From a virus, in the IMG/VR virus record IMGVR_UViG_3300049737_000165, positions 1 through 26,617 of that record: DNA of 26,617 nt; one strand, written 5' to 3'. Below, one piece after another: positions 3,906 to 26,617 of this stretch. The notes under the pieces are model-generated. The model saw only the letters and a program-made list of their open reading frames with translations, ran no database searches and had not been told where the DNA came from. The stretch's first letter is position 1; each line of letters starts with the position of its first letter. A program made the position numbers and the translations under genes.

Positions 3906-4167
3906 TTATCTCTCCTTTAAAGTTTACTTTACCTTTTTCATTAAAGTGTTCTACAAGTTGATTATAACCACCAATTAAATTTCCATCAATCTTAATCTGT
4001 GGCATTTGCCTCACATTCTTACCAATGTCTTCAATTAGTTTACTAGGGTCGGAATCAAAGTCTTTTTCTAAAGATTTTTCTTCGTATTCAAGGCCAAGAT
4101 TTTTTAGCAATGTTTTGGCCTTGTTACAATAAACACAATTGTTTTTACTATAAACTGTTATTGTCAT
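3898..4167 (-). CDS. Glutaredoxin
   Basis: An 89-residue glutaredoxin. The redox centre CVYC is at residues 11-14 after the first beta strand (ITVYSKNN). The cis-proline is Pro56 in RQMPQI, where most family members have TVP, and the glutathione-binding GG pair is at 66-67. It would pass electrons from glutathione to substrates in the cytoplasm, most obviously to the phage NrdA. T4 carries a comparable NrdC. Its start lies inside the end of the LPP20-like lipoprotein gene and its end overlaps the next gene, so it belongs to the unit driven by the promoter at 4792-4820. Identification is secure; the missing Thr before Met-Pro is a mild variation. Confidence 0.93.
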   Translation of the reverse strand: MTITVYSKNNCVYCNKAKTLLKNLGLEYEEKSLEKDFDSDPSKLIEDIGKNVRQMPQIKIDGNLIGGYNQLVEHFNEKGKVNFKGEIIE

Positions 4168-4774
4168 CTTTATTCTTTAGGTTGTCCCATGCCTTTTTAC
4201 TTTCATCATTTAGATTGTAAGCGTCAACAGCTTGTTCAATAGTGTAGTTATACATCTTATTAAACTTACCTAGAGGCAATCTCATACCTATCCATGTTCT
4301 ATAATAACCATTTTTAGTCATAGTTACATCTTGTGCAAATATCTCATAACCTCTTACAGGTGTATCAGTTATTTTATTTACAATAGCACTTTCAACTTCG
4401 GTCACTACAGTTTTTGTTTCAGTTTTACCAAGTTCTTTGATGAATTGTTTTGATTCTTTATTCATCTCACCCTTGATTATATCTGCCAATTCAGATTTAG
4501 CCATCATTTTAGCTTTCTCTATTGACAATTGTAAATCAGGAGAAACAGCTGTTGCAACACCATAGATACATTGCTTATCATTATCTTCACTTGTTAACCA
4601 TGAAGTATCACAAGCTTTTGATTCATTGATATCTGCCATGTACCACGCTGGTACTTTATCAACAGTATTACCTTTCTCTGATTTAATCTTATAGGTACTA
4701 TTCATACTAGAACAGGCACTTAGACCTACAATAGCTACAAGAGCACCTAATTTCATCATTTTATTTTTCATCAT
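4148..4774 (-). CDS. LPP20-like lipoprotein
   Basis: A 208-residue predicted lipoprotein. The signal peptide is short and basic (MMKNKMMK) and runs to a lipobox VGLSAC, with Cys21 the lipidated residue. The mature part carries YGVATAVSPDL, then the helical AKMMAKSELADIIKGEM, then GYYRTWIGMRLPLGKF, the order expected of the LPP20 family of outer-membrane lipoproteins. Four further cysteines may form disulfides. It starts about 11 bases after the predicted transcription start of the promoter at 4792-4820. It is the first of a group with glutaredoxin. Phage-encoded outer-membrane lipoproteins often block superinfection; that role is inferred here. Confidence 0.75.
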   Translation of the reverse strand: MMKNKMMKLGALVAIVGLSACSSMNSTYKIKSEKGNTVDKVPAWYMADINESKACDTSWLTSEDNDKQCIYGVATAVSPDLQLSIEKAKMMAKSELADIIKGEMNKESKQFIKELGKTETKTVVTEVESAIVNKITDTPVRGYEIFAQDVTMTKNGYYRTWIGMRLPLGKFNKMYNYTIEQAVDAYNLNDESKKAWDNLKNKDDNNSL

Positions 4775-5303: not shown

Positions 5304-5463
5304 ATTTTCTCAATTCTTCTATACTTTGTTTTGTATTATATATCTCTTCTTCAAGATTGTCAATGGTGGATTGCTTATTAGTAATTTCAATCTCCTCTTG
5401 CTTTTCTTTGACTTCGTTCTCTAATTGTTCTATTCTGTCATTATATCTATTTTGATATGTCAT
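5296..5463 (-). CDS. Small coiled-coil protein
   Basis: A 55-residue protein. The frame is open further upstream, but those codons lie inside the 17 kDa-type lipoprotein gene; the ATG at 5463 overlaps that gene's stop as ATGA and gives the natural start. Almost the whole product is a charged heptad-like helix (RIEQLENEVKEKQEEIEI and on), so it is probably a cytoplasmic dimer or trimer. There is no signal or membrane segment. It ends eight bases into the next gene. Function unknown. Confidence 0.65.
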   Translation of the reverse strand: MTYQNRYNDRIEQLENEVKEKQEEIEITNKQSTIDNLEEEIYNTKQSIEELRKYV

Positions 5464-5945
5464 GGTTTTTCTATCCATTGTCCGTCTGGTAATTGACAAG
5501 CAGTACCAAATACTACCTCTCTCTTGACGCCTCCGATACCAATTAATGGCCAACTACTAGTAATATCTACTGTTGCGTCATAATCTTTACACTTAATAGG
5601 TCCTTGTGTATATGACCTTGTAACATGAATAATACCTGAATTACCTGTTTGACTATTGTACCAATTTGTATAACTAGAACCTGAACCACTTGTGTTTAAA
5701 TGGTCTACAAATACAGCATTGTGTACATCATAATCTGATTTATACATTAATTCAGCACCTGCAAATCCTCCTAGTAAAGCACATGCACCAGTAACATAGG
5801 GGTCTGAAACACCTAATGATACACAACCTGCAACAGCTGAACCTGCACCGGCACCAGCACCAATATGTGTTCTATTAATCGAACTGCAATTGGTCAGGAA
5901 CACCAATGATAGTCCTAATAATAGTACCGATTGGATTGACTTCAT
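5460..5945 (-). CDS. 17 kDa surface-antigen-type lipoprotein
   Basis: A predicted outer-membrane lipoprotein of about 161 residues. The ATG at 5945 has AAGAAGG at good spacing; an ATG at 5960 overlaps the previous stop and is the alternative. The signal peptide ends in the lipobox FLTNC (Cys20). A glycine zipper follows (GAGAGAGSAVAG, then GGFAGAE). The C-terminal domain has CKDYDATVDI and FGTACQLPDGQWIEKP, matching the Cys and GTACRxPDGxW pattern of the rickettsial 17 kDa antigen family. That family is typical of Alphaproteobacteria, so this gene is the clearest host-derived item in the window. A role in changing the cell surface or excluding other phages is inferred. Confidence 0.82.
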   Translation of the reverse strand: MKSIQSVLLLGLSLVFLTNCSSINRTHIGAGAGAGSAVAGCVSLGVSDPYVTGACALLGGFAGAELMYKSDYDVHNAVFVDHLNTSGSGSSYTNWYNSQTGNSGIIHVTRSYTQGPIKCKDYDATVDITSSWPLIGIGGVKREVVFGTACQLPDGQWIEKP

Positions 5946-6042
5946 ATTTACCTTCTTCATTTTTTTTGATTGATGAACACGCTGTCATGGTTGAGACCAC
6001 TATAATCGCCATAATCACCACTCTTATCTTTTTCTTTATCAT
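5875..6042 (-). CDS. Small lipoprotein overlapping both neighbours
   Basis: A 55-residue frame with a lipoprotein signal: MIKKKIR, a hydrophobic run, and the lipobox TMTAC with Cys22. The mature peptide is short (about 34 residues) and ends IIGVPDQLQFD, with NPIGTIIR before it. It overlaps the end of the 5957-6220 gene by 86 bases and the start of the 17 kDa-type gene by 71, each in another frame. No start has a clear ribosome site; a GTG at 6057 and an ATG at 6012 are the alternatives. The exact signal-plus-lipobox layout is unlikely by chance, so I think it is real. An o-spanin (Rz1-like) role is possible but unproven. Confidence 0.5.
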   Translation of the reverse strand: MIKKKIRVVIMAIIVVSTMTACSSIKKNEEGKYEVNPIGTIIRTIIGVPDQLQFD

Positions 6043-8809: not shown

Positions 8810-9490
8810 TTATTTCCAAGCATTTTTTATCCATTCCATGTCAGATTCGTGAGGATTTGGTCTTCCGTGAAACACGGTTACCAACGATTCGCCATTATGT
8901 TCATATGTCCAGTTTTGTTTAGAGTATCTAGTACCGCTTCGGTCATACCACTTATATGATTGTGTCCACGAATCTGGAAACGAATCACATCCAGGAGTAT
9001 TCTTAATTAAGGCTGATATTAGGTTTTGGTCACCTGGATACTGTCTAAGGTATTCTGGTCTATTGGACATAAATTTATGCCAAATTCGGCCGTGAAGGTC
9101 CTGCTGTTTAAATCTCATAATACTGGAGTTCCAAACACCACTTACGGGGTTAAAGTCATTCATACCACAAAAATCTAGTTGTGGTTCGTGACTATAGAAA
9201 CAGTCTATATTACTTGTAATTACAACATCTAAATCCATGTATAAGGTAACGCCTGGTAGATATGTGTCTGGATGAAATAACTGTAGTTTATTCCACCAGC
9301 CTTGTAAATCAGTTTCTTTAAACTGTCTAATATCAATATCTCCCTCTACCATCTTATGCATTTTAACATGGTCGGTAAATACTACAAAATTTATAGGAAG
9401 TGTGGTGTTTCTTCTTACCATATTGTAAAGTTTTTGAACATACTCTACAGGATACTTGTCACCATAACAAACGCAAGCAAAATTGTACAT
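8810..9490 (-). CDS. GT-A-type glycosyltransferase (DxD)
   Basis: A 226-residue glycosyltransferase-like protein. I start at 9490, where AGGAAT precedes an ATG that overlaps the upstream stop; the longer frame would run through the membrane-protein gene. The product opens MYNFACVCYGDKY, then LPINFVVFTD, GWWNKLQLF and LYMDLDVVI, where Asp86-Leu-Asp88 is the metal-binding DxD of GT-A enzymes. The later block GDQNLISALI is also typical of this group of phage and bacterial GT8-like proteins. It would transfer a sugar from a nucleotide-sugar donor in the cytoplasm. It is the last gene of the glycan cassette. Donor and acceptor cannot be told. Confidence 0.8.
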   Translation of the reverse strand: MYNFACVCYGDKYPVEYVQKLYNMVRRNTTLPINFVVFTDHVKMHKMVEGDIDIRQFKETDLQGWWNKLQLFHPDTYLPGVTLYMDLDVVITSNIDCFYSHEPQLDFCGMNDFNPVSGVWNSSIMRFKQQDLHGRIWHKFMSNRPEYLRQYPGDQNLISALIKNTPGCDSFPDSWTQSYKWYDRSGTRYSKQNWTYEHNGESLVTVFHGRPNPHESDMEWIKNAWK

Positions 9491-9738
9491 TATATTCCTA
9501 ACCAATTGAATACTGCTCTTAAACTTAATAACATATACATTAATTCCATAATCATTCTTGGCCAATCTTTATCTTTATAACCAAACCACACCCACATAAT
9601 ACAAGCACTTACACTCAAAGACCAACCTACCCATTGGGTTGAAACATTTGCACTTGATAAGATTGCTACACTAGTAACAGCAAGTATTAAACCAAACCAT
9701 CTAAATTTGTTCTTGAAGAACCTCGAAGGCGATACCAT
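9490..9738 (-). CDS. Small membrane protein, three helices
   Basis: An 82-residue hydrophobic protein. The ATG at 9738 has AAGGAG seven bases upstream; a TTG two codons earlier is too close to that site. Three membrane helices are likely at about 14-31, 37-54 and 63-80, with WFGYKDKDWPRM in the second loop. It overlaps the end of the preceding GT-B-like gene by 38 bases. It could be a small transporter, flippase partner or anchor for the cassette, but no family is clear. Confidence 0.7.
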   Translation of the reverse strand: MVSPSRFFKNKFRWFGLILAVTSVAILSSANVSTQWVGWSLSVSACIMWVWFGYKDKDWPRMIMELMYMLLSLRAVFNWLGI

Positions 9739-10486
9739 CTTCAATCTCCTTTATTGTAAATTGATTATAAGATAACATTCTCATCCATCTATTTATTTTA
9801 TCACCATCAGGTTTAAAAGGATAATTTAATGTCTTGTAACTTATATCTCTACTACTAACACCAGCAGCTACATTTCTATTATGTGTTATACATGGTACGC
9901 CATTGACTGTTGCGTCAACAGCCGTTAATGACATGTTAGTAACTAAACAATGAGCGTCTTTTAAGTCATCTAATATATCTGTATTCCACCATTTGTTATT
10001 TGGTCTTGGTTTATTTCTTAATTTTATCGGTCTATCTGTACATTTTTTTATTTCATCTGTAGTTTCTTTTATCCAATCATCTTGTGTCATATCATTTATA
10101 TAATATGTTACAGTAGGAGATGAAGGACAAACTAATATATGCTCACCTGATTGCCAACCTTTAAATTCTGTATTTAATCTCTTATCATCATGTTCTTTAA
10201 ATGATGTGGTGTGAATACCACCTTTACATATTCTAAAATATGTTTTATCGTAATTGTTTATAATTGGTTCAGGATATCTTGTAATTTGTTCAGTTATATA
10301 ACCGTTATCTACATACCACCATTCTAATCCCCAATCTATACATTGTTTGATTGTTGATATATTTTTACCTGCTAATCCCCAAAAAAAGTGTACATCTTTT
10401 CCGTTATCTTTCCAACCTTTTTTTATGGCTGGCATAAGTTGATGTGATAAACATTTGTCCCACGGTAAAGTATGTGTATGAATCAT
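9701..10486 (-). CDS. GT-B-like surface-glycan protein, paralog 1
   Basis: A 261-residue protein, one of three related proteins here (with 12547-13428 and 16930-17832). Shared elements are GEHILVCPSS, a block with CTDRPIKLRNKPRP, then DILDDLKDAHCLVTNMSLTA followed by VNGVPCITH, and a C-terminal QFTIKEIEDGIAF. This order, a nucleotide-sugar-site-like helix (S/T-rich) followed by a small G-x-P loop, resembles the C-terminal half of GT-B or capsule-export (KpsC/S-like) enzymes. Its start overlaps the previous gene as ATGA. A glycan role is inferred from fold pattern and neighbours; the precise reaction is unknown. Confidence 0.6.
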   Translation of the reverse strand: MIHTHTLPWDKCLSHQLMPAIKKGWKDNGKDVHFFWGLAGKNISTIKQCIDWGLEWWYVDNGYITEQITRYPEPIINNYDKTYFRICKGGIHTTSFKEHDDKRLNTEFKGWQSGEHILVCPSSPTVTYYINDMTQDDWIKETTDEIKKCTDRPIKLRNKPRPNNKWWNTDILDDLKDAHCLVTNMSLTAVDATVNGVPCITHNRNVAAGVSSRDISYKTLNYPFKPDGDKINRWMRMLSYNQFTIKEIEDGIAFEVLQEQI

Positions 10487-11205
10487 CTACTATCTACCAA
10501 ACTTTTATTAACTTTAATTACATTCTTTAATATTTCACTATCAATAAAGTTTGTAAATGCCTCCATGTCTTTAGGAAAACAATTACCATCATAACCTAAT
10601 TCTTTTACTCTCATGTGACTAGGACCTATATTCTCAAAGTCTGCCAATGTATTAATAATAGAATGATAGTTATATGATTTATCTAATTTACTATACAATT
10701 CATGGAAGAAAGTAACCTTTGTAGCTAACCAACAGTTGTACACATATTTAATTACACTTGCGTCCTTCTTTTTTAAAATAATATTTGTTTTGTGATGGCA
10801 TTTAAATCTTTCAATCCACCAATCTGCTTCACTTCTTAAACCACCCCATAATATGTGTTCATTGTTTTTAAAATCTTTTTCAGCATGTGCTTCTCTAAGA
10901 AATTCGGGAGAATAAACTACATTCTCCTCATAGACAGTTAACATGTTTGGTAAAATGGTAGATTTTATTAAAGTTCTTACATCTCTCAATGCAATAACTG
11001 TTTTATCTATTACTGTTAAATCTTGTTCACCATTTATAGTAGGTGTTGGTAAACAAATAACAGCACCATCAATCTTGTCAACAAAATGTTCTAGTTTATT
11101 GTCGTTGTATTTTGGGTCTATTCTTACTACATCATTTTGAGCATTTTCTAATGCGTTTGCAATTGTATTTCCAACATACCCACAACCTATTACTGCTAAT
11201 TTCAT
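10483..11205 (-). CDS. UDP-glucose/GDP-mannose dehydrogenase family, short form
   Basis: A 240-residue member of the UDP-glucose/GDP-mannose 6-dehydrogenase family, which oxidises a nucleotide sugar twice to the uronic acid using NAD. The NAD motif GCGYVG is at 7-12, CLPTPT at 51-56, KSTILP at 81-86, SPEFLREAHA at 99-108, the helix with KYVYNCWLATKVTFFHEL at 153-170 and the catalytic-cysteine loop GYDGNCFPKD at 204-213 (Cys209). The usual family length is about 390-450; the C-terminal UDP-binding domain is absent. All catalytic landmarks remain, so it may work as a minimal enzyme or with another subunit. It would supply an acidic sugar to the cassette. Confidence 0.85.
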   Translation of the reverse strand: MKLAVIGCGYVGNTIANALENAQNDVVRIDPKYNDNKLEHFVDKIDGAVICLPTPTINGEQDLTVIDKTVIALRDVRTLIKSTILPNMLTVYEENVVYSPEFLREAHAEKDFKNNEHILWGGLRSEADWWIERFKCHHKTNIILKKKDASVIKYVYNCWLATKVTFFHELYSKLDKSYNYHSIINTLADFENIGPSHMRVKELGYDGNCFPKDMEAFTNFIDSEILKNVIKVNKSLVDSR

Positions 11206-11873
11206 TTTAAATCTATCCTTGTTGTTTCGTAATATAATCTAAACCACTCATCAGCATAATCACTTCTAGCATACTCTTCAAAATAAGGTCCGCCTAATGT
11301 CCAATGTACATTTTTAGCCTTGTGATTATAATCATATTCTCCTACTAACCAGTTCCATTCTAAAGGTATATCTCCTATTGCGTCTTCATTGGCGCACCAT
11401 TTAAATTGATGTAAGTCTAAACCACTTGCATTATTAACATAGTCTAATGTTAATTTATGACATAAAGAATTATTAAACATCATAAAACTAGACCAATTCT
11501 TTTTAGGAAAAGCTTCATTCTTAGCACCTCTAAATTTTACAGTTTGTTTAGGTACATAATTATGTTTACAACATTTTACAGTATATAAGTAATTTCTCAT
11601 TTTCCACAATTCTGCAATGTCACCTCTAAACATCATATCACAATCCATAAAAATAGAATAACCTGTATAACTTCTTAAATATGGCACCATAAATCTACTA
11701 AATGCAAAATCTGTAGATTGATTCTCCTGTTTTTCTCTTGTAAAATCTGGTATATTACTCAAACACAATGGTGTAATTGAAACTGGTTCGCTTGAGTTTC
11801 TTCTAATACTCTCTGCCAATATATGGTAGGCAATCTTTTCGCCCTCATCATAACCTATAAAAACATCTATCAT
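11202..11873 (-). CDS. GT8-like glycosyltransferase (DxD)
   Basis: A 223-residue glycosyltransferase of the type common in phage surface-glycan regions. It opens with IDVFIGYDEGEKIAYHILAE (residues 2-21), the typical start of these proteins. YSIFMDCDMMF contains the DxD metal site (Asp77, Asp79), and the later block PKKNWSSFMMFNN resembles the acceptor-side motif. The start has GGAGG upstream and overlaps the previous gene as ATGA. It would act in the cytoplasm. Donor and acceptor unknown. Confidence 0.85.
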   Translation of the reverse strand: MIDVFIGYDEGEKIAYHILAESIRRNSSEPVSITPLCLSNIPDFTREKQENQSTDFAFSRFMVPYLRSYTGYSIFMDCDMMFRGDIAELWKMRNYLYTVKCCKHNYVPKQTVKFRGAKNEAFPKKNWSSFMMFNNSLCHKLTLDYVNNASGLDLHQFKWCANEDAIGDIPLEWNWLVGEYDYNHKAKNVHWTLGGPYFEEYARSDYADEWFRLYYETTRIDLK

Positions 11874-12571
11874 ACTCTTGCCTCCGGACTACGCCCTTTT
11901 AATTTTCTGTTACCTTTGGTGTGGTCATAAACAGGTCCTAATATAGACCTCGCTTGTACATGGCCATTTTTACCATCACCTATATTAAAATTTCTTGTAC
12001 CTCTGTTTTCAAATTCTTTTCTTACATAATCCCACACAAAACTATCGTGTTGTTCTTTTAAATTATATATACCATCTGTATCATATAAAGATTTCATTCT
12101 GTTTGCATATGCTAATGTGTCTGCATGATTTAAATTAAAGTATAAAAATCCACACTCACTATAATGATTACCTCTACCTAGATATGTCATCATACAATCA
12201 TCTCTATGAATATGTTTTTTAATCCACTCTTCATCTATTTTCTTATGAAAAACACTATCAGCGTCAATACAAATAAGACCATCAACATCTTCGTTCATAA
12301 GAGCATGTGTATATGCATAAACTTTATAACTAAAACGGACACCATCTGTAAGAAACTCTTTTCCTTTTACTTTATAATCTGAGTATGGTTGTCTATGTTT
12401 ATTTCGTTCTACAAACTCTTTTAACTCTGGTAAGACTTTCATCATACACTCATCTTCATTATAGATTTTTAAAGGAAATGACCAATTATAGGTCTCCTTA
12501 AATCTATAAGCGTACTCTTTATATAGTTTATTATTGTAAGTTGTTATTACTTTGATATTAAGTGGTGCCAT
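11870..12571 (-). CDS. GT-A-type glycosyltransferase (DxD)
   Basis: A 233-residue protein with a GT-A layout. The first strand is NIKVITTYNNKLYKEYAYRF, the sugar-nucleotide region follows, and the metal site is LICIDADSVFHK (Asp103, Asp105). Later blocks are CGFLYFNL and EQHDSFVWDYVRKEF, the latter with the acidic residues often found near the catalytic centre. AAGGT precedes the ATG, which lies 25 bases inside the end of the preceding gene. Together with the other two DxD proteins it indicates at least three sugar-transfer steps. Confidence 0.75.
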   Translation of the reverse strand: MAPLNIKVITTYNNKLYKEYAYRFKETYNWSFPLKIYNEDECMMKVLPELKEFVERNKHRQPYSDYKVKGKEFLTDGVRFSYKVYAYTHALMNEDVDGLICIDADSVFHKKIDEEWIKKHIHRDDCMMTYLGRGNHYSECGFLYFNLNHADTLAYANRMKSLYDTDGIYNLKEQHDSFVWDYVRKEFENRGTRNFNIGDGKNGHVQARSILGPVYDHTKGNRKLKGRSPEARV

Positions 12572-13428
12572 GGTTTACCTTGTCTAATTTCTTCTACTGA
12601 CCATTGAGCATAAGCTAGGTCATACAACAGTTGTTCTCTTTCGCCACATTTAGGATTTTCAATATCTGATAATGAATGACTCGATATAGGCCATAAAAAA
12701 TTATATTCATTACATGGTATTACTGGTATGCCTGCTAATATAGAATCAATACTAGAACCGCTAGTATAAGACACGGTGCAATGTGCATTTTTAAAATCTT
12801 TCTTTATGTCTTCATTTTTACTATATGTTACATTTTTGTATGCAAAACTTTGAATATGATTTTTCATTAAATTTTTGTTTTCAGGATGGTCTCTAAATCT
12901 AATTTCTCTGTCAGTATGTTTTCTCAAATAATGAATTGTATTAGTAACCCATAACTGAAAGTCAATACCAAATAAAGAGGCGTCTGTCATATTTTGACCC
13001 ATTAATAATATATGCTCACCTTTTTTTCTCCAAGGACTAACTTTTAATTTAAGGTTATCAAATCTATCTGATTTACTATTTTTATTCTTAAAGTCTGCTA
13101 AACCATGCATATAATGTTGTAAACCAACTCTGTAGTTTCCGTGAATTTGTGCAATAGTTCTACCTAATAAAGGCGTTTCTAAAACAATTAACGGTTTATC
13201 TTTATGACTTGCTATAATTGTTTGTTTTACATGATGGTGTCGTACAAAATCGTTCTTCCATTCTTTAGTAGGTGTTTTTTTCCAAGAACCAAATACGACT
13301 GCTACATCACATTCCTCATATCTGTCATGTTTTTTTACACACTTACCACCAACTGAATCTGCAAAATCCATTAATATTTGTTTTTGCTTCCATAATGGTG
13401 TAGAATTTAAAAAGAAATTTACTAACAT
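12547..13428 (-). CDS. GT-B-like surface-glycan protein, paralog 2
   Basis: A 293-residue relative of the proteins at 9701-10486 and 16930-17832. The N-terminal half includes CDVAVVFGSWKK and the region LIVLETPLLGR, like the first domain of a GT-B enzyme. The second half has GEHILLMGQNM, HTDREIRFRDHPEN, DIKKDFKNAHCTVSYTSGSS and AGIPVIPC, and ends QWSVEEIRQGKPWHHL. The HPEN and S-G-S-S positions are the best candidates for a nucleotide-sugar or phosphate site. The start ATG overlaps an upstream stop as TAATG with a GGGG site. Likely a transferase or export-linked enzyme of polysaccharide synthesis. Confidence 0.65.
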   Translation of the reverse strand: MLVNFFLNSTPLWKQKQILMDFADSVGGKCVKKHDRYEECDVAVVFGSWKKTPTKEWKNDFVRHHHVKQTIIASHKDKPLIVLETPLLGRTIAQIHGNYRVGLQHYMHGLADFKNKNSKSDRFDNLKLKVSPWRKKGEHILLMGQNMTDASLFGIDFQLWVTNTIHYLRKHTDREIRFRDHPENKNLMKNHIQSFAYKNVTYSKNEDIKKDFKNAHCTVSYTSGSSIDSILAGIPVIPCNEYNFLWPISSHSLSDIENPKCGEREQLLYDLAYAQWSVEEIRQGKPWHHLISK

Positions 13429-14111
13429 TATTTACCCCGTAATATAACTGCCTCTGATAAACATTTATTTCTAGGTCTATTTAAAAACACTTCGTATTTG
13501 TAATTAAGGTCTTTTAACATTTGTTCATATTGTTTTAAACTAGTTTCATTATCAATTAGTTTTACTTCAAACTCAATTAAAAATGCCTTAAAAGGTACAT
13601 CATAAGTTAAAATCTCTGTACAAAAATCATACCACACACCCTCAATATCAGCTTTAATGATATCTGGTTGTGGCATATCTTCTTCCATCATCTGTTTTAA
13701 ATTTTTACATTCAACTTCAATGTATGCTGGGTCTTCACCAAATTGTGGTAATGGTAATAAAGAATAACATTTTGCTAAATCATTCTTATCATAATAAAAT
13801 TTCATAGTACCTGGTGTCTTATTATATGCGACTTGATGAAATGTCATCTTATCTTTACCAGTAAAATTTGTTTCCCACATCTTTATGGTATCTGGTGTAG
13901 GGTCATATAAATGTATATTCATATTAGGATTGTCTTGCAACATAGATTGTTCCCAACCTACATCTCTATGTACGCCTAATGATAATACATTTGTGCTTTC
14001 TTTGACTACACTTTCTGGTAGCCAATAGTTTTTATATTGTTTAAAGTCTTGAGGATTCATATAGATACCCTCTAGTCTTTTTATCTCTGTTAAGAGTTCT
14101 TGTTCAGTCAT
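13428..14111 (-). CDS. FkbM-family methyltransferase
   Basis: A 227-residue SAM-dependent methyltransferase of the FkbM type. The SAM loop is NVLSLGVHRDVGWEQ (41-55), with the acidic residue after strand two in HLYDPTP (Asp70) and the signature IIKADIEG at 151-158, usually (I/L)KxDxEG. FkbM enzymes methylate hydroxyls of sugars, and such genes are common in O-antigen, capsule and marine-phage glycan clusters. It has a strong AAGGAG start. Here it probably caps or decorates a sugar of the cassette. Confidence 0.88.
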   Translation of the reverse strand: MTEQELLTEIKRLEGIYMNPQDFKQYKNYWLPESVVKESTNVLSLGVHRDVGWEQSMLQDNPNMNIHLYDPTPDTIKMWETNFTGKDKMTFHQVAYNKTPGTMKFYYDKNDLAKCYSLLPLPQFGEDPAYIEVECKNLKQMMEEDMPQPDIIKADIEGVWYDFCTEILTYDVPFKAFLIEFEVKLIDNETSLKQYEQMLKDLNYKYEVFLNRPRNKCLSEAVILRGK

Positions 14112-14120
14112 TTTATCTCC

Positions 14121-14762
14121 TTAATCTTCATGTACTGGCCAATCAGTTTGGAAAGTAACATAATTTAATTGTATACCTCTTCGTTCTACTTTAATATTTT
14201 TTCCTTCATCCATACCATGCCATTTATTAGGTCCATGAAATATGTATCCATAATTATTCCAAAATGGTACTGTCTTTTTATATGATAAATCTTCACTATA
14301 TAAATCGGTACCTAAATTAATATTTTCACCTGTCTTGTTAATATAAATTAAACTTGATATTAATTTTTCTGGTATATCACAATGAGGTTTCAACCAAAAT
14401 CCCTCTGTATCATTTAATACTTCTAGTCTAACAAAAGAACCTTTAAATTCTTCTTTATTTCCTACCATCTTAGCAATTAATTTTCTTACAGGTTTACTAC
14501 GCAAATCATTAATAAATTTTGTTAATTCAGGATATTTTTTATAATTATCTCTTGTAATATATTCTCTTAATTTATGATTTTGTTTCTCTACACCTTTTTT
14601 GTAACCTGACCTGGTACCATCATGTAATACACCATCTCTAGTTACAGTAGCATTTCTAATTTCATCAATCTGTTTATCTGTTAAGACATCTTGAATAATA
14701 AAATGGTCCCATGGATTATTGTCATATTTACATCTTTGTAAACTATCTAGTAATTTTGTCAT
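14121..14762 (-). CDS. 2-oxoglutarate/Fe(II) dioxygenase
   Basis: A 213-residue 2OG-Fe(II) oxygenase. The ATG at 14762 overlaps the stop of the SGNH gene as ATGA, which decides the start over a frame 12 codons longer. The iron site is LKPHCDIPEK (His127, Asp129) with a distal His in NKWHGMDEG (His182), and an Arg in ERRGIQLNYV (Arg194 or 195) should hold 2-oxoglutarate. These enzymes hydroxylate or otherwise oxidise C-H bonds and are frequent in marine T4-like phages. In this setting a sugar or lipid-linked glycan is the likely substrate, but protein or nucleic acid cannot be excluded. Confidence 0.85.
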   Translation of the reverse strand: MTKLLDSLQRCKYDNNPWDHFIIQDVLTDKQIDEIRNATVTRDGVLHDGTRSGYKKGVEKQNHKLREYITRDNYKKYPELTKFINDLRSKPVRKLIAKMVGNKEEFKGSFVRLEVLNDTEGFWLKPHCDIPEKLISSLIYINKTGENINLGTDLYSEDLSYKKTVPFWNNYGYIFHGPNKWHGMDEGKNIKVERRGIQLNYVTFQTDWPVHED

Positions 14763-15478
14763 TTGTTTTTCAACCAATCTATTATACCATCTGTCCATAC
14801 TTTATAAGCATGTTGATTAGGATGTTGGTCGCCCTCTGCTAACTCGTATTCTTCACTCGTTTGTATTAAGTCAAGTAAACTATACTCTGGTTTATAGTAA
14901 TTAGACCAATCTATTTGGTTTTTAATAGTTTTGGTCTCACGATTTTTTGGGTTGTACTTATACCCTATTGAATTATATATGCAATAATCCAATTTTAATT
15001 CTTTTAATCTTTTTTGTATTTTTAAAATAGAAAACAATACATGATAAGAAGCTGTTTCATCAATATCTTCATTTATAACTTTTCCCCATTTTAAGGTGTG
15101 AAAATAATCACCTTTAATAACAGGTCCTTTTGTAAAGGCATATTTCATACAATTTTCTGCCTCTTTATTTCTACCAAAAATACTTGCTTTATTGCCTCTT
15201 TCTTTGTTATATGTTTGTTCATCAAAACTTACTACTTGAAATCTACCAGATGGTGGTACACCAATTAATATGAAACTATTTTTTTCAAATTTGTGTGAGT
15301 ATAATCTTCTTAATACACCATCAATGCTATAACCATTACGAGCAAGATTAACTTCATCTTTTTTCATATATTCTGCAACATATGTACCTGGACTTCTATG
15401 TTCACCACTTAATTTATTTCTTTGAGGCACACAATTACCATATGCAAAACTGCAACCCATATTATACAACTTTGACAT
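14759..15478 (-). CDS. SGNH/GDSL-type hydrolase
   Basis: A 239-residue protein with the marks of an SGNH hydrolase. The nucleophile block is YNMGCSFAYGN (Ser10, in place of GDSxxxG), and the C-terminal block is GDQHPNQHAYKVW (Asp217, His219). Block II may be NLARNGYSIDG and block III ILIGVPPSGR. I start at 15478, where GAGAGGAAG precedes the ATG; a longer frame would run further into the carbamoyltransferase gene. Such enzymes add or remove acyl groups on surface glycans, and related forms modify O-antigens and capsules. Cys in place of Asp beside the Ser, and the Asp-x-His spacing, are unusual but occur in phage relatives. Confidence 0.7.
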   Translation of the reverse strand: MSKLYNMGCSFAYGNCVPQRNKLSGEHRSPGTYVAEYMKKDEVNLARNGYSIDGVLRRLYSHKFEKNSFILIGVPPSGRFQVVSFDEQTYNKERGNKASIFGRNKEAENCMKYAFTKGPVIKGDYFHTLKWGKVINEDIDETASYHVLFSILKIQKRLKELKLDYCIYNSIGYKYNPKNRETKTIKNQIDWSNYYKPEYSLLDLIQTSEEYELAEGDQHPNQHAYKVWTDGIIDWLKNK

Positions 15479-16856
15479 TATACTTCCTCTCAAAATCTTG
15501 ACCATCTCGTTTATCATTTACCATAGGTTTACCTTTGATGTTTAGAGATGTATTTAACAATATTGGACAACCAGTTTGCCTCTTCCATTCTTTTAATAAA
15601 TTATAAAAACCCTCATTATCTTCTTTTGTAACAGTTTGTACTCTACTTGTGCCGTCTGCATGTATAATAGCAGGAAATTCTTTAGGGTATTTACAAGTAC
15701 CAACAAACTGCATATATGGACTTGTTTCTTGTGGCATATCAAAATACTCATGTACATCTTCTAATAATATAGCAGGTGCAAATGGTCTAAACTTTTGTCT
15801 TTTCTTAATTGCATTGACCATATCTTTGACCTCTGGTCCTCTAGGGTCTGCAAGTAAACTTCTATTACCTAATGCTCTAGGTCCAAACTCTGCTCTGCCA
15901 TTGGCAACACCAACCATTTTGTTTGCTTTTAATTCTTTTATAATACTATCTACAGGATATTCACCAGGTATATCTTGTCCTAGAAAAGGACCTTTCCAAT
16001 TTAATTTTTGTTTTGTAATGGCAGGTATACAACCTAATGCTGAACCACTATCTCCTGGATTTGGCATAATCCATATATTTCTTTTAAGATTACTATTTGC
16101 AACACAATTTAAAGCACAACCACCACTAATAACTAAATTAATTTTTTTACAATGTTTTTTTACAATCTTTGATAATTCATCTTCATATACTTTTTGTACT
16201 GAGGCTGCTAAATCATAATCAGTTGCCCATGTCAAATCATTATTAGGTACACCCTTATGATTATTTCTTTTCAACCAATTTTCTTTTATAAAAGTAGTAT
16301 ATCTTGGTTTACCATATGCAGCCATACCCATTGTAATATATTCTTCTTCGTTTGGTTTTAATCCTATTCTTTGTGTTACTGCTGAATATAATAAACCTAA
16401 TGATATAGGATATTGTTGACGACCTATCATTTTTTCATTATCCCATAAAGACATAGTTTCCATTTCACCAATGGCGTCAACTGTTAGTGTCATTGCGTCT
16501 TCAAATGGTGATGTATAATAACCACCTGCCATGTGTGAGTGGTGGTGTGTAGCATATTCATCTATCTTAATACCAAATTGTCTTAAATATATACTTGGTA
16601 AATCTTTCATATTTAATGCATGATAATATTGTCCTGCTTTTAACTGTCTTTTCTTCTTCAGCCATGGTTTTTCATAATATACGACCATGTCAAAAGGACC
16701 ATATCTCATAGCCTCATTAACAATAGCCCAATTTAAAAACTGGTCATTCTTAATCTTAGAATATCTTTCAGCATGAGCAGCCCACATTATTTCCTGACCG
16801 TCAACAACGGCCATGGCTGCGTCATGGTTTAGACAATTTATTCCTAATATTCTCAT
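15462..16856 (-). CDS. NodU/CmcH-family carbamoyltransferase
   Basis: A 464-residue carbamoyltransferase, which moves a carbamoyl group from carbamoyl phosphate, through a carbamoyl-adenylate, to a hydroxyl of a sugar or similar acceptor. Landmarks are LGINCLNHDAAMA (4-16), the metal-binding HHHSHMAGGYYTSPF (104-118), LVISGGCALNCVANS (241-255), NGRAEFGPRALGNRSLLADPR (319-339, the carbamoyl-phosphate loop) and RPFAPAIL (357-364), with LLNTSLNIKGKPMVN near the end. Family members are usually about 550-600 residues; the C-terminus is shortened after KPMVNDKRDG. Similar genes occur in cyanophage glycan clusters. It ends 17 bases inside the SGNH gene. Confidence 0.92.
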   Translation of the reverse strand: MRILGINCLNHDAAMAVVDGQEIMWAAHAERYSKIKNDQFLNWAIVNEAMRYGPFDMVVYYEKPWLKKKRQLKAGQYYHALNMKDLPSIYLRQFGIKIDEYATHHHSHMAGGYYTSPFEDAMTLTVDAIGEMETMSLWDNEKMIGRQQYPISLGLLYSAVTQRIGLKPNEEEYITMGMAAYGKPRYTTFIKENWLKRNNHKGVPNNDLTWATDYDLAASVQKVYEDELSKIVKKHCKKINLVISGGCALNCVANSNLKRNIWIMPNPGDSGSALGCIPAITKQKLNWKGPFLGQDIPGEYPVDSIIKELKANKMVGVANGRAEFGPRALGNRSLLADPRGPEVKDMVNAIKKRQKFRPFAPAILLEDVHEYFDMPQETSPYMQFVGTCKYPKEFPAIIHADGTSRVQTVTKEDNEGFYNLLKEWKRQTGCPILLNTSLNIKGKPMVNDKRDGQDFERKYNVKVV

Positions 16857-16936
16857 TTGTATATAAAAGGGTCCTGTTTTTTAGCTTTGTATTTTTGCCA
16901 TTTAGTTTTAAACCAATTGATTATTCTTCTTACCAT
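16853..16936 (-). CDS. Micro-ORF, 27-residue basic peptide
   Basis: A 27-codon frame filling the only gap between two cassette genes. Its ATG overlaps the stop of the GT-B-like gene (ATGGTAAG), GGAGA lies upstream at good spacing, and its stop overlaps the carbamoyltransferase start as ATGA. The product is very basic and amphipathic: MVRRIINWFKTKWQKYKAKK then QDPFIYK. It may be a real small membrane-associated peptide, or a leader that couples translation to the next gene. Confidence 0.5.
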   Translation of the reverse strand: MVRRIINWFKTKWQKYKAKKQDPFIYK

Positions 16937-17832
16937 ATATTTTCTCCGTTTAAATGCCCATATGCTTTACCGTTTTTCATTTCTTCTTCGGTAAACTGAG
17001 CACACATTAATGATTTTATCCAATCTTCTCTGTCACCTGCATATAAAGGGTCTTTAATTTGGTCTAACTCATTTAAACCTAAACTTACTGGATAAGCAGG
17101 CGAATGTTCACTACAATAACTAGGTATACCAGCCATAACGGCATGTACAGCACACATTGAATGAAAAGATACCATAGCGTAACAATCTTTTAAATCTTCA
17201 CTCAATGGTTTTTCTTTTCTATCTGGCGACCAATCTAAATCATCTTTAAATTTTTGTCTAACAACTATATCTCTTTTGGTATGTTGTTTTAATTTCTTTA
17301 TAATATCTTTTTCCCATTCAATCCTATCTATACCGTACCAATGTGCTGTATGATAACTTGGTGGTATTACAAGAATATGTTTACCATTATATTGCCAAGG
17401 TTTAGGTGTTAATTCATCTCTACATTTTTCATTAAGTCTTTCTATAAGTTTATCAAATCTTCTATCGACCTTATATGATTTTTCTAAATAATTTTTTTGA
17501 GTATTGTTTTTACAGATACGATACCATCTATCTCCTGTGTCTGATTGTTTAAAATCATTACTAAAGAAATAAGGTTGGTCAAAGTAATACCAATCATTAC
17601 AGACTTCTCTAACTTCTTTAGTTCCTCTGACTAAACCTTGAAAGGCAACTGATACATCATCAGGTATTTCACCGTCCCATGTAGGCCAACTAAAATCTAA
17701 AAATCTAGCTGCACCTCTTCCTGGCGATTTATTATTTTCTACTGAATTAAAAATTTCGTGATTATGTTTTTCACAGAATAATTTTAAAAATGATGATGAT
17801 GATTTTTTAGTATTAAAGAGATAAATTTTCAT
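16930..17832 (-). CDS. GT-B-like surface-glycan protein, paralog 3
   Basis: A 300-residue relative of the two other GT-B-like proteins. The ATG at 17832 has AAGG upstream; the frame is open for two more codons. Elements are KIYLFNTKKSSSSFLK at the start, DVSVAFQGLVRGTKEV, GKHILVIPPSYHTAHW, HTKRDIVVRQKF, LSEDLKDCYAMVSFHSMCAVH, AGIPSYCSEHS and the closing QFTEEEMKNGKAYGHL. It is the first glycan gene of the cassette, starting inside the end of the RuvC-like gene. Function as for its paralogs: a sugar- or polymer-transferring enzyme, not precisely known. Confidence 0.62.
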   Translation of the reverse strand: MKIYLFNTKKSSSSFLKLFCEKHNHEIFNSVENNKSPGRGAARFLDFSWPTWDGEIPDDVSVAFQGLVRGTKEVREVCNDWYYFDQPYFFSNDFKQSDTGDRWYRICKNNTQKNYLEKSYKVDRRFDKLIERLNEKCRDELTPKPWQYNGKHILVIPPSYHTAHWYGIDRIEWEKDIIKKLKQHTKRDIVVRQKFKDDLDWSPDRKEKPLSEDLKDCYAMVSFHSMCAVHAVMAGIPSYCSEHSPAYPVSLGLNELDQIKDPLYAGDREDWIKSLMCAQFTEEEMKNGKAYGHLNGENIW

Positions 17833-18406
17833 AACCAACCTTTTTAATAAAATAACTATCTACAATATCAGACAATGGATTACCTGTCTTTTCTGTATCA
17901 AGTATCTTCTTCAAGTTATATTCTGGTAATTCTTTCACAAATGCCTCGTACATCATATCTTTATCTGCATTACCTTTTCCAGTAGCACCTTTTTTAACAA
18001 CACTAGGTACAACTGTATGATAACCATACTCTTCTTCAAGTAAACGATATTTAAGAATACCACAATTTTCAGCAATTTGAAATACACCTTGGCCTTTTGA
18101 ACCAAAGGAGTATCCTTCAATGAAAATAATAGGTTGATTTTGTTTGTAATTTGATAATAGGTCCATAACAAAATCTGATATGTAAGTGAATCTTTCAATA
18201 GGGTCGTTCCATTCTTTATGTTCATAACCAGTTATATTTTCACCTTGTCTACCAATCCATTTCTTTTTACTTGTTAAGTAATGAAAAGAAAAAGTACCAC
18301 TTCTTATGTCATCAATATGTATAGCCGGACTGGTAAGACTATAATCAATTCCAATCTTCGTCCTCTTCCAATCCGTCTTCGTATCTTTCCTCAGCGTCTT
18401 CTTCAT
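17813..18406 (-). CDS. RuvC-like Holliday-junction resolvase
   Basis: A 197-residue RNase H-fold nuclease of the RuvC type. Acidic residues fall in the expected places: Asp21 in KIGIDYSLTSPAIHI, Glu97 in IIFIEGYSFGSKGQGVF, and Asp180/Asp183 in NPLSDIVDSYF. The basic region VVPSVVKKGATGKGNADKDMM is the typical DNA-facing part. T4 itself uses gp49 for this step; RuvC-like versions are frequent in marine relatives. GAGGT lies six bases before the ATG at 18406, so the start is well supported although it lies 62 bases inside the zinc-ribbon gene. It would resolve branched DNA before packaging. Confidence 0.82.
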   Translation of the reverse strand: MKKTLRKDTKTDWKRTKIGIDYSLTSPAIHIDDIRSGTFSFHYLTSKKKWIGRQGENITGYEHKEWNDPIERFTYISDFVMDLLSNYKQNQPIIFIEGYSFGSKGQGVFQIAENCGILKYRLLEEEYGYHTVVPSVVKKGATGKGNADKDMMYEAFVKELPEYNLKKILDTEKTGNPLSDIVDSYFIKKVGYENLSL

Positions 18407-24517: not shown

Positions 24518-26389
24518 TTAAGCACCTCCTTCTTTCATCACAGGTTTATAAATTGTAATTAATTCTTCTTTACCTTTGACTTTTATTTTGTCAACTTCTA
24601 CAGACTTAACATCTTTTAATTGGTCCATTGTGTAAGAAGAATATAATGTCGCCACGATATTACCATCTTTCTCTTTGTAATTTCGTGTCGCAGCCTCTAG
24701 TCTAGCAGCTAAGTTAACTGCGTCACCAATGACTGAGTAATCAAATCTCATATCACTACCCATATTACCAACGATACAAGTACCTGTGTTTACACCTGAA
24801 CCTATGTTAATTTCTGGTAGCCCTTTATCTTTAAATTCTTGTTTTAATTTGGCAGTTTCTTTAGCACACTCGATACTTGTCTTAACAGCCATCTCAGCGT
24901 GATTAGGACAGTCAAGGGGTGCGTTCCAGAAGGCCATTATGCAATCGCCCATGTACTTATCAATTGTACCACCATTGTTCATTACTATCTTACTCATTCT
25001 ATTTAAGTAATCATTTATTACACCTACAAGGCCTTCGGGGTCATCATTATTCTTGTAATATTCTGAAATAGGTGTGAAACCTACAATATCCATGAATAAG
25101 AAAGACATCTCTCGTCTTTCACCACCTAACTTCAATTTACTAGGGTCTTTTTGAAGTATGGCAACTTGTCGTGGGTCTAAGTATGATTCAAATTGTTTTC
25201 TTATCTGTTGTTTTAATTTAAATTCTAAAATAAATCTGTTGAATATACTATGTAAACCAACAAACAATATAGTCACCAATATCCAAGTGACATCTACTAA
25301 CATTAATCTTTCAAAATACCATATTGCTCCGTATATTGAGGCGATAGAGAAAAACACCATCATCATACCTACTGCATAGTATGGTGTAAATCTTGTAAGG
25401 ACTATTATACACGAACCTATCAGAAAGGCAACAGCCAATTCAATTAAAAATGATATGTCTGGTCTTTCTATGTTGACACCATCTATAACTGTTTGTAATG
25501 TTGAAGCAATTGCAACATAATCATAATTACTTCCTGTTGGTGTTGCAATCACACCACCTAATCCCTCTGCTGTCATGGCAACTATTACAGTCTTACCTTT
25601 TAAATTATCAAAGGCACCTGGACCTGTACTTGCTAATGACATAGTTTCATACTCTTTATTCCATGTCAACCATATTCTGGCATTTGCGTCTGTATTAATT
25701 GTTGCAAAACCTGGTACTCTCATAGCAATAATACCTGCGTCACCAGCTTTTACTTGATAACTAGGGTCACCAACTGCAACTCTTATAACTTCTATTGCAA
25801 GTGACGGATAAACATCATTACCTATTTTCATAAGCAACGGCATTCTTCTTACAACACCATCTATTTCAGGAGATACATTTGTTGTACCTACACCAGCTGC
25901 ATTTGAACCTACTTCTAAAATAGGTCCTACCATACCTGGCCATTCAAATAACCACTCTAAAGGATTACCAATCTTGGCAACACCTCTAGGATATCCGTTT
26001 TGTGTAGTTTGATGTGAACCAGTTTGGGCAACAACGACAAAATTATCTTTTAATGCTTCTGCAAGAATGTCGTCACCGCCCAATCTATCTTCCTCTGAAA
26101 ATAAAATAGGCAATACAATGACACCTACCTCAGCGGCTCTTAATTCTTCTATTAGACCTGCTAATACATCTCTTTTCCATGGCCATTGACCATACATTTC
26201 TATTGCCTTTTCGTCAATAGTTACAATAGCAATGTCTTGTGATACTTCTTTTTGTTGTGCTTGGAATTGTAGGTCAAATGATTTTAACCTAAGAATTTCT
26301 TTAATCTGTGGGTCTTGTATGCCAATCCATGTCAAGGCAAACAAAGTAACAAAAGCAAAAGTCCAATGTGTAAATAATTTCTTCATCAT
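24518..26389 (-). CDS. CHASE2-domain class III adenylate cyclase
   Basis: A 623-residue membrane cyclase, complete. After an N-terminal membrane segment (about 8-24), a CHASE2 sensor domain fills the periplasm (about 30-310: FDLQFQ, IVTIDEKAIEMYGQWPW, VVRRMPLL and a TPTG stretch). Three helices follow (about 313-331, 336-357, 363-381), then the cyclase domain. The metal-binding residues are Asp434 (FLFMDIVGFT) and Asp482 (DKYMGDCIMAFW); Lys478 should set purine choice with Ser552 (YSVIGD), and Asn559 and Arg563 (VNLAARLE) are the transition-state pair. All are present, so it should make cAMP from ATP. Ser in place of Asp at the purine site points to class IIIb. An enzyme of this layout in a T4-like phage is unusual; bacterial origin is likely. 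Confidence 0.95.
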   Translation of the reverse strand: MMKKLFTHWTFAFVTLFALTWIGIQDPQIKEILRLKSFDLQFQAQQKEVSQDIAIVTIDEKAIEMYGQWPWKRDVLAGLIEELRAAEVGVIVLPILFSEEDRLGGDDILAEALKDNFVVVAQTGSHQTTQNGYPRGVAKIGNPLEWLFEWPGMVGPILEVGSNAAGVGTTNVSPEIDGVVRRMPLLMKIGNDVYPSLAIEVIRVAVGDPSYQVKAGDAGIIAMRVPGFATINTDANARIWLTWNKEYETMSLASTGPGAFDNLKGKTVIVAMTAEGLGGVIATPTGSNYDYVAIASTLQTVIDGVNIERPDISFLIELAVAFLIGSCIIVLTRFTPYYAVGMMMVFFSIASIYGAIWYFERLMLVDVTWILVTILFVGLHSIFNRFILEFKLKQQIRKQFESYLDPRQVAILQKDPSKLKLGGERREMSFLFMDIVGFTPISEYYKNNDDPEGLVGVINDYLNRMSKIVMNNGGTIDKYMGDCIMAFWNAPLDCPNHAEMAVKTSIECAKETAKLKQEFKDKGLPEINIGSGVNTGTCIVGNMGSDMRFDYSVIGDAVNLAARLEAATRNYKEKDGNIVATLYSSYTMDQLKDVKSVEVDKIKVKGKEELITIYKPVMKEGGA

Positions 26390-26392
26390 ACC

Positions 26393-26399
26393 TATTTAG
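26393..26399 (-). promoter_or_regulatory. Late-like CTAAATA element before the cyclase
   Basis: CTAAATAGG on the minus strand, overlapping the stop of the repeat-protein gene and the ribosome site of the cyclase. It is too near the ATG to be an ordinary promoter with a leader, so it may be chance. Confidence 0.15.
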
Positions 26400-26617
26400 T
26401 TCTGTGTGACAGTCGCTGAGCAACTTACTTGTGTGCAATTTTGATATAAGTAATAATTTTGTGAGGTACTACTGTCTTGTGTCAAATCTATCGTTGATGT
26501 ATTACCACTTAAATTAATTGTGGCATTGTGGTCACCACTTCCGTCTTGCGTTACATCTACATTGTGACTATCAGTCAATGTTATTTCTGCATAATGATTG
26601 CCTGTACCTTTTTGGTC
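26396..26617 (-). CDS. Curlin-like repeat protein, partial (C-terminal end)
   Basis: The last 73 codons of a gene that enters from the right edge; the frame stays open to the first base, so the TTG near 26578 is not its start. The sequence repeats a unit of about 20-22 residues built around N/T-x-x-x-x-Q-x-G-x-x-N: VDVTQDGSGDHNATINL, then IDLTQDSSTSQNYYLYQ, with a partial copy GTGNHYAEITL at the edge. This is like the curlin repeats of CsgA/CsgB, which stack into beta-solenoids or amyloid. Two cysteines lie near the end (QNCTQVSC). A fibre or structural role is possible; the rest of the gene is needed. Confidence 0.6.
   Translation of the reverse strand, partial: DQKGTGNHYAEITLTDSHNVDVTQDGSGDHNATINLSGNTSTIDLTQDSSTSQNYYLYQNCTQVSCSATVTQN

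Follow-up and report, generated by a model that had tools for sequence, protein, structure and literature searches.

A CHASE2-class III adenylate cyclase gene in the curli cassette of T4-like phages and its possible role in a FecR–CHASE2 envelope sensor

The cyclase gene and the curli cassette

The window, that is the whole stretch of 26,617 nucleotides that was analyzed, carries the gene for a CHASE2-class III adenylate cyclase of 623 amino acids at 24,518–26,389. The gene lies on the minus strand, which the original prediction had not named, with the ATG at 26,389, 623 codons and the stop at 24,518. The prediction of a complete enzyme was borne out. The ORF is uninterrupted, its translation contains both Pfam domains and all catalytic residues, and its match to PHROG 35576 spans the full length of the protein (E 2e-268); an NCBIfam search gave no useful name. 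All features of the protein given here are on the minus strand. The CHASE2 sensor domain comprises residues 19–324 (25,418–26,335; PF05226, E 3e-42) and the class III cyclase domain residues 427–612 (24,554–25,111; PF00211, Guanylate_cyc, E 7e-18), the latter scoring 65.4 bits against a cut-off of 21.9. An AlphaFold2 model was obtained with a mean pLDDT of 86.9 (49-sequence alignment). Three membrane helices are predicted after CHASE2, at about residues 313–388 (25,226–25,453; model helices 313–334, 337–360 and 368–400). The original count of three membrane helices thus stands for this part of the protein, but not overall, since a further helix before CHASE2 (residues 9–25; 26,315–26,365), predicted from the model and the hydrophobic sequence, brings the number to four. 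The predicted layout is that of a CHASE2 receptor, with an N-terminal membrane helix, CHASE2, three membrane helices and a cyclase output, and by the known CHASE2 topology the sensor domain is expected to be periplasmic. In a structural comparison of the model, the cyclase domain superposed on CyaB (3r5g) with a Z score of 26.5 and 2.0 Å rmsd over 188 residues, and on CyaC (1wc1) with a Z score of 25.0; these matches are confined to the cyclase part, residues 371–620, and the list says nothing on CHASE2. Scans for sigma-70 promoters and terminators around the gene gave no decisive signal.

Six catalytic residues had been named beforehand, and all six were found at those numbers in the translation. 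Their conservation was surveyed in 233 aligned proteins, namely 80 CYC1-type phage proteins, 73 CYC2-type phage proteins and 80 bacterial relatives. The metal-binding Asp434 (25,088–25,090) is present in 80/80, 73/73 and 80/80 of these, respectively. Lys478 (24,956–24,958), the residue specifying ATP as substrate, the metal-binding Asp482 (24,944–24,946) and the transition-state residue Arg563 (24,701–24,703) are present in 233/233. Ser552 (24,734–24,736), the second substrate-specifying residue and class IIIb-like, and the transition-state residue Asn559 (24,713–24,715) occur as an S/N pair in 80/80 CYC1 proteins and as S or T with N in 80/80 bacterial relatives. The CYC2 type retains D434, K478, D482 and R563 but has D552 and S559 in 73/73 proteins, a pair that may lower activity or change the product. 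In class III cyclases, a lysine with an Asp, Thr or Ser partner, and not Glu or Cys, selects ATP. K478 and S552 follow the class IIIb pattern, so that ATP is the predicted substrate. The window protein would make cAMP from ATP, both its activity and its ATP specificity being predicted from these residues.

The contig had been taken for that of a T4-like phage, and this is upheld by the IMG/VR virus record (IMGVR_UViG_3300049737_000165), by PHROG matches, by NrdA and by the gene order. The primase, RuvC, ribonucleotide reductase and endolysin-like genes of the window match PHROGs. NrdA is 92% identical to that of Pelagibacter phage Mosig EXVC030M and 80% identical to that of HTVC008M, and the order DUF7201-primase-NrdA-hypothetical-NrdB-RuvC is common to the window and Mosig. 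No CsgG or CHASE2-cyclase match was found in Mosig, where other genes occupy the position of the curli cassette described below; phages that are otherwise alike may thus carry the cassette or not. Elsewhere in the window, a long run of glycosyltransferase-like, methyltransferase-like and carbamoyltransferase genes (8810–17,838) probably serves surface modification; in Mosig, too, the matching position holds glycosyltransferase and sulfotransferase genes. Small predicted lipoproteins are encoded on the minus strand at 4148–4774 and 5460–5960, the product of the former resembling LPP20 (E 2e-4, under the Pfam cut-off).

The gene preceding the cyclase encodes a curlin-repeat protein. It is cut by the right edge of the window, so that only its C-terminal end is contained (26,396–26,617, minus strand, frame open to the edge). 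Its sequence is almost the same as that of the C-terminal end of AGE60352 from HTVC008M, and its stop lies 6 bases ahead of the cyclase ATG. The positions of csgF, csgG and FecR would be past the edge. The curli context was missed by the original prediction because the window ends inside the preceding curlin gene. In HTVC008M and Melnitz the genes for CsgF, CsgG, a curlin repeat, FecR and a second curlin repeat are followed by the cyclase as last gene. The same order was found in every locus with enough upstream sequence among the 80 closest viral loci and two isolates, and also, given enough upstream sequence, in a separate group of viral loci collected via a different cyclase domain. Phage curli/T8SS cassettes (Zaragoza-Solas 2020; Wittmers 2022) are marked by csgF, csgG, curlin-repeat and FecR genes; of these, the window shows the end of the curlin-repeat gene. 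By comparison with its relatives, the window cyclase would be the last gene of csgF-csgG-curlin-FecR-curlin-cyclase and not a free-standing metabolic gene. Downstream of the cassette the neighbor differs between loci (tail tape measure, SSB or DUF7201/primase), and therefore the cassette moves as a unit.

As a reverse test, viral loci were picked by CsgG alone, which avoids selection on the cyclase. Among the best 80 matches, FecR was present in 56/56 loci with at least 1.6 kb downstream, and a CHASE2-cyclase in 20/20 loci with at least 5 kb downstream, a few of which were near-copies. In two of these 20 loci the cyclase was moved or reversed. Both isolates with this CsgG, HTVC008M and Melnitz, also have the CHASE2-cyclase. 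By gene content and order, the linkage of the cyclase to the curli cassette was shown to be near-obligate. Two observations concern larger phages. In some large-phage contigs of up to 349 kb (L219/L220, L225) the cyclase is on the opposite strand to the curli genes, at most a few kb apart. Jumbo Brevundimonas phages of about 350 kb (hits H25–H27) encode CsgG-like proteins with 28% identity that are annotated as hypothetical.

Of 123 unique regions upstream of csgF, 60 contain the T4 late-promoter heptamer TATAAAT at most 200 bases from the gene, with 11.5 expected by shuffling. Reversed sequences contained it in 28/123, and by that control the excess is therefore about twofold. Before csgG, FecR and the cyclase, which lie inside the cassette, the motif was present in 0, 6 and 8 of about 130, respectively. 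In HTVC008M it lies 6 bases ahead of the csgF ATG. The motif result suggests late transcription of the whole cassette, cyclase included.

Selection, output domains and FecR

For the window type, the median dN/dS was 0.06 for the cyclase part of the protein and 0.18 for CHASE2 (hundreds of comparisons); for the CYC2 type the values were 0.06 and 0.08. By these ratios, strong purifying selection acts on the cyclase domain. The ORF of the window is not a chance reading frame, because it has hundreds of viral relatives and a cyclase-domain dN/dS of about 0.06. Quick trees were calculated for both domains. On the CHASE2 tree the CYC1 and CYC2 outputs interleave, with at least five changes forced by well-supported branches. 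On the cyclase-domain tree, which carries a long-branch warning, CYC1 and CYC2 each form one clade. Still other cyclase domains with an intact catalytic set are found in the phage loci L339, L360 and L333. Therefore, the sensor has repeatedly gained new cyclase outputs. A natural chimera was seen at L068:1058–3130, where a CHASE2 domain 90% identical to that of the window is joined to a cyclase domain with only 36% identity and the coupled changes S552D and N559S.

Co-evolution was analyzed in 68 dereplicated phage cassettes. The partial distance correlation of CHASE2 and FecR given CsgG was 0.48, and 0/500 permutations were as high. For CHASE2 and the cyclase domain joined to it, the partial correlation was 0.02. 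On this measure, the CHASE2 sensor was shown to co-evolve with FecR and not with its own output domain. As a caveat, adjacent genes recombine less, which could raise the FecR–CHASE2 correlation; it would raise that of CHASE2 and cyclase still more. In bacteria, FecR genes were found in the flanks of 18 of 79 CHASE2-cyclase loci versus 1.2 expected from the FecR density in 11 genomes, although several of the FecR-bearing genomes are related and their lineages are not all independent, so that the Poisson value overstates the case.

For the host side, a SAR11-441R probe sequence marked one AT-rich genome of 1.2 Mb, and the family of this genome was taken to be SAR11. The survey comprised 197 genomes of this family, many of them incomplete assemblies, and its counts apply to that family. 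A CHASE2 protein was present in 24 of the 197 genomes, in 22 cases of another kind than the CHASE2-cyclase. Four SAR11-family CHASE2 loci were fetched. One encodes a CHASE2-SpoIIE phosphatase by Pfam, a second looks alike by eye, and in three of the four FecR lies directly before the CHASE2 protein. At L376:83–3492, L375:53–3498 and L377:529–3956, FecR is followed by CHASE2 with a predicted SpoIIE-type phosphatase, apparently the host's own FecR–CHASE2 sensor. Published examples are a Campylobacterota cluster of CHASE2 adenylate cyclase, FecR outer-membrane protein, phosphodiesterase and TPR protein (PMC9239204), and a FecR/CHASE2-kinase biofilm operon of Burkholderia (PMC5192318). Together, the bacterial, published and SAR11 pairs point to FecR–CHASE2 as a sensor pair with changeable outputs. 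We infer from these data that FecR may be the direct partner of CHASE2. The occurrence of FecR domains in several unrelated roles counts against this reading.

The cassette was also found on bacterial contigs. In a Caulobacteraceae MAG, L083:5989–12049 holds csgF-csgG-curlin-curlin-FecR-CHASE2/cyclase between glycosyltransferase and TonB-receptor genes. A second genome of the same family carries a cassette (L269:3242–9262) with 87% nucleotide identity to the first over exactly the 6-kb block, in unrelated flanks; a calcineurin-like phosphoesterase gene lies just past it. Judged from this comparison, the 6-kb curli-FecR-cyclase block looks as if it were mobile in bacteria. The CHASE2 domain of L083 forms a long branch within the phage clade; the L083 cyclase domain groups with bacterial ones.

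According to Wittmers et al. (2022), FecR and the cyclase do not belong to bacterial curli operons (PMC9599517). This is true for 18 of the 20 alphaproteobacterial operons that we fetched, and not for L083 and L269. Ordinary alphaproteobacterial curli operons were considered as the source of the phage genes and rejected, as 18/20 had no FecR or CHASE2-cyclase, with L083 and L269 as the only exceptions. Gene capture from the SAR11 host is likewise unsupported; those CHASE2 proteins of SAR11 that we looked at are phosphatases. Of the two clear CHASE2-cyclases of the SAR11 family, one (L296:277–2942) adjoins spanin-like and nuclease ORFs, and its contig is for this reason probably phage DNA binned with the host.

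Proposed function and fate of the cAMP signal

We favor the reading that the window protein would be the cytoplasmic-output arm of a FecR–CHASE2 envelope sensor in the phage curli cassette, with cAMP made late in infection, and put its probability at roughly 0.58. The genes csgF-csgG-curlin-FecR-curlin-CHASE2/cyclase would probably form a single late operon, transcribed from a T4-type late promoter ahead of csgF. The curlin-like proteins and FecR would be secreted to the periplasm, and CsgG and CsgF would form an outer-membrane pore. FecR may then inform CHASE2 of the periplasmic state or of how curli export proceeds, upon which the homodimeric class IIIb cyclase domain would make cAMP from ATP inside the infected cell. 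Curli export is the presumed sensor input here, and the timing is presumably late. Two further points count against the sensor reading. In Melnitz-infected cultures no aggregation was seen (PMC9004378), and curli fibers may therefore not form; sibling capture by aggregation is one published idea for the cassette (PMC7029224). The typical hosts are also without the known receptor family, and the pathway is therefore left without a known last step.

This receptor family was searched for in the 197 SAR11-family genomes. PF00211, the class III cyclase domain, was detected in three genomes, in two of them over the cut-off. The cNMP-binding domain PF00027 was detected in 12, of which three matches are clearly CRP-like (>50 bits) and nine are weak and lie in proteins of about 370–1000 amino acids. 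No cNMP-binding domain was found in the remaining 185 of the 197 genomes; single absences are weak, 185 together are not. Of 14 known genomes that served as controls, 10 were positive in the cyclase search and 5 in the PF00027 search. Nine phage records contained no PF00027 match; complete isolate genomes or near-complete contigs make up three of these records.

These numbers bear on the original proposal that phage cAMP acts via CRP-like transcription factors of the host on carbon or stress control. Such a route would fit a cyclase that is intact by sequence and model, and in S. meliloti the CRP-family regulator Clr does receive signals from CHASE2 cyclases (PMC13001267). CRP-type proteins do exist in 3/197 SAR11-family genomes, and not every host in the wider phage set belongs to SAR11. 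However, the genomes of the family are mostly without CRP, and therefore cAMP in a typical SAR11 cell would meet none. The CRP route was not borne out by the searches in phages and SAR11-family genomes and was rejected as the main reading; on these counts we consider it unlikely. The cAMP must be read by a receptor that does not belong to PF00027, or in a rarer host, or must act directly on an enzyme.

Lysis timing was considered as well. The cassette would then be a pore-based release device and the cyclase a timer or an ATP drain. Buchholz et al. proposed that the CsgGF pore is pinholin-like and helps to time lysis (PMC9004378), the late-type promoter motif before csgF is in line with this, and a membrane sensor could report lost membrane or envelope integrity. 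However, a bare pore needs no conserved curlin-repeat proteins or FecR, and an ATP drain needs neither conserved ATP-selecting residues nor a sensor that co-evolves with FecR. We regard this explanation as distinctly unlikely.

Alternatively, cAMP or another cyclic mononucleotide might jam or mislead a nucleotide-signaling defense such as Pycsar. The window cyclase domain is a distant homologue of the Pycsar cyclases (PADLOC PycC, E 1e-24), repeated output swaps with the core catalytic residues kept could reflect an arms race, and the coupled S552D/N559S change in one swapped type might alter the product. But the PycC match covers the shared cyclase domain only and is typical of any class III cyclase, the bacterial L083 cyclase scoring higher. 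A freely diffusing decoy does not explain the fixed linkage to curli genes and FecR, and streamlined hosts are generally poor in known defense systems. An anti-defense role is highly improbable in this light. Identity with Pycsar itself was rejected, as any class III cyclase matches PycC and no cyclic-mononucleotide-binding effector was found next to the cyclase, the neighbors being curli, FecR and replication genes. The PADLOC PycC models match 24,518–26,389, and phage genes of this kind could be mistaken for Pycsar by automated defense finders.

Barely credible is a bacterial curli-FecR-cyclase cassette carried as a passenger without function for the phage: the same cassette order occurs in two Caulobacteraceae-group genomes and the closest isolate, Mosig, is without the cassette, which is hence dispensable, but a cyclase-domain dN/dS of about 0.06 over hundreds of comparisons contradicts this, as do catalytic residues that are invariant in 153 phage proteins, the coupled CYC2 change aside.

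The FecR–CHASE2 sensor reading can be widened. FecR–CHASE2 might be a modular sensor common to phages and bacteria with exchangeable outputs (cyclases, histidine kinase, SpoIIE phosphatase), tied to type VIII secretion in the curli phages, and its cAMP might be read in SAR11-type hosts outside the CRP/cNMP-binding family. This wider form is tentative and, taken as a whole, doubtful. If it is true, cAMP would have a target of a new kind or be used without any transcription factor.

Pelagiphages belong to the most abundant viruses of the ocean, and the cyclase gene recurs in hundreds of viral contigs. The puzzle is that an intact and selected cAMP sensor is carried into usual hosts that seem to be without cyclases and CRP-type receptors. 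Either SAR11 contains a cAMP target that has gone unrecognized, or the enzyme serves the phage in some other way. We know of no ligand for CHASE2, and the co-evolution with FecR gives the domain a testable partner. The cultured phages HTVC008M and Melnitz make such tests possible.

Relation to known systems

The original statement that no phage system of this kind had been characterized holds for biochemistry. It does not hold for genomics: the HTVC008M gene is annotated as 'adenylate/guanylyl cyclase', and Wittmers et al. (2022) assign the adenylate cyclase to the T8SS (curli) clusters of pelagiphages (PMC9599517). Gene and cassette are thus already published there, and the window is a further member. 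In the retrieved part of that account nothing was found on the CHASE2 identity, the output swaps, the co-evolution with FecR, the cassettes in bacteria or the cAMP receptors missing from the host, and to that extent these are apparently new.

The closest known relatives, HTVC008M AGE60353 and Melnitz gp104 (PHROG 35576), are 67% and 49% identical to the window protein. They represent the same gene, in the same cassette order as in the relatives of the window, and have the same hosts. The output domain of Melnitz differs, with 36% identity to the cyclase domain of the window, D/S at 552/559 and a C-terminal tail. In the Caulobacteraceae cassettes (L083, L269) the csgF/csgG/curlin/FecR/cyclase order is as in the phage, on bacterial contigs; their proteins differ from that of the window by Thr at 552, a longer C-terminal tail and only 37% identity in CHASE2. 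The Campylobacterota cluster resembles the phage cassette in that the CHASE2 cyclase adjoins a FecR-domain protein. In contrast to the cassette, it is bacterial, and the retrieved part of the report mentions no csgF or csgG (PMC9239204). In the SAR11 FecR/CHASE2-SpoIIE pair, a FecR gene also lies directly before a CHASE2 membrane sensor, but the output is a SpoIIE/PP2C-type phosphatase and not a cyclase. CyaB of P. aeruginosa (3r5g) and CyaC of Spirulina (1wc1), both class IIIb, share the cyclase fold of the window protein, whereas their sensor domains differ from its CHASE2.

The nearest experimental parallel to the sensor reading is found in S. meliloti, where the outer-membrane barrel NsrA signals to the CHASE2 cyclases CyaD1, CyaD2 and CyaK and these to the CRP-family regulator Clr (PMC13001267). 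Like the window protein, these cyclases combine CHASE2 with a class III cyclase domain, and the signal enters via an outer-membrane barrel. Unlike the phage cassette, the S. meliloti system has no curli or FecR, and it possesses in Clr the CRP-family reader that SAR11 hosts mostly do not have.
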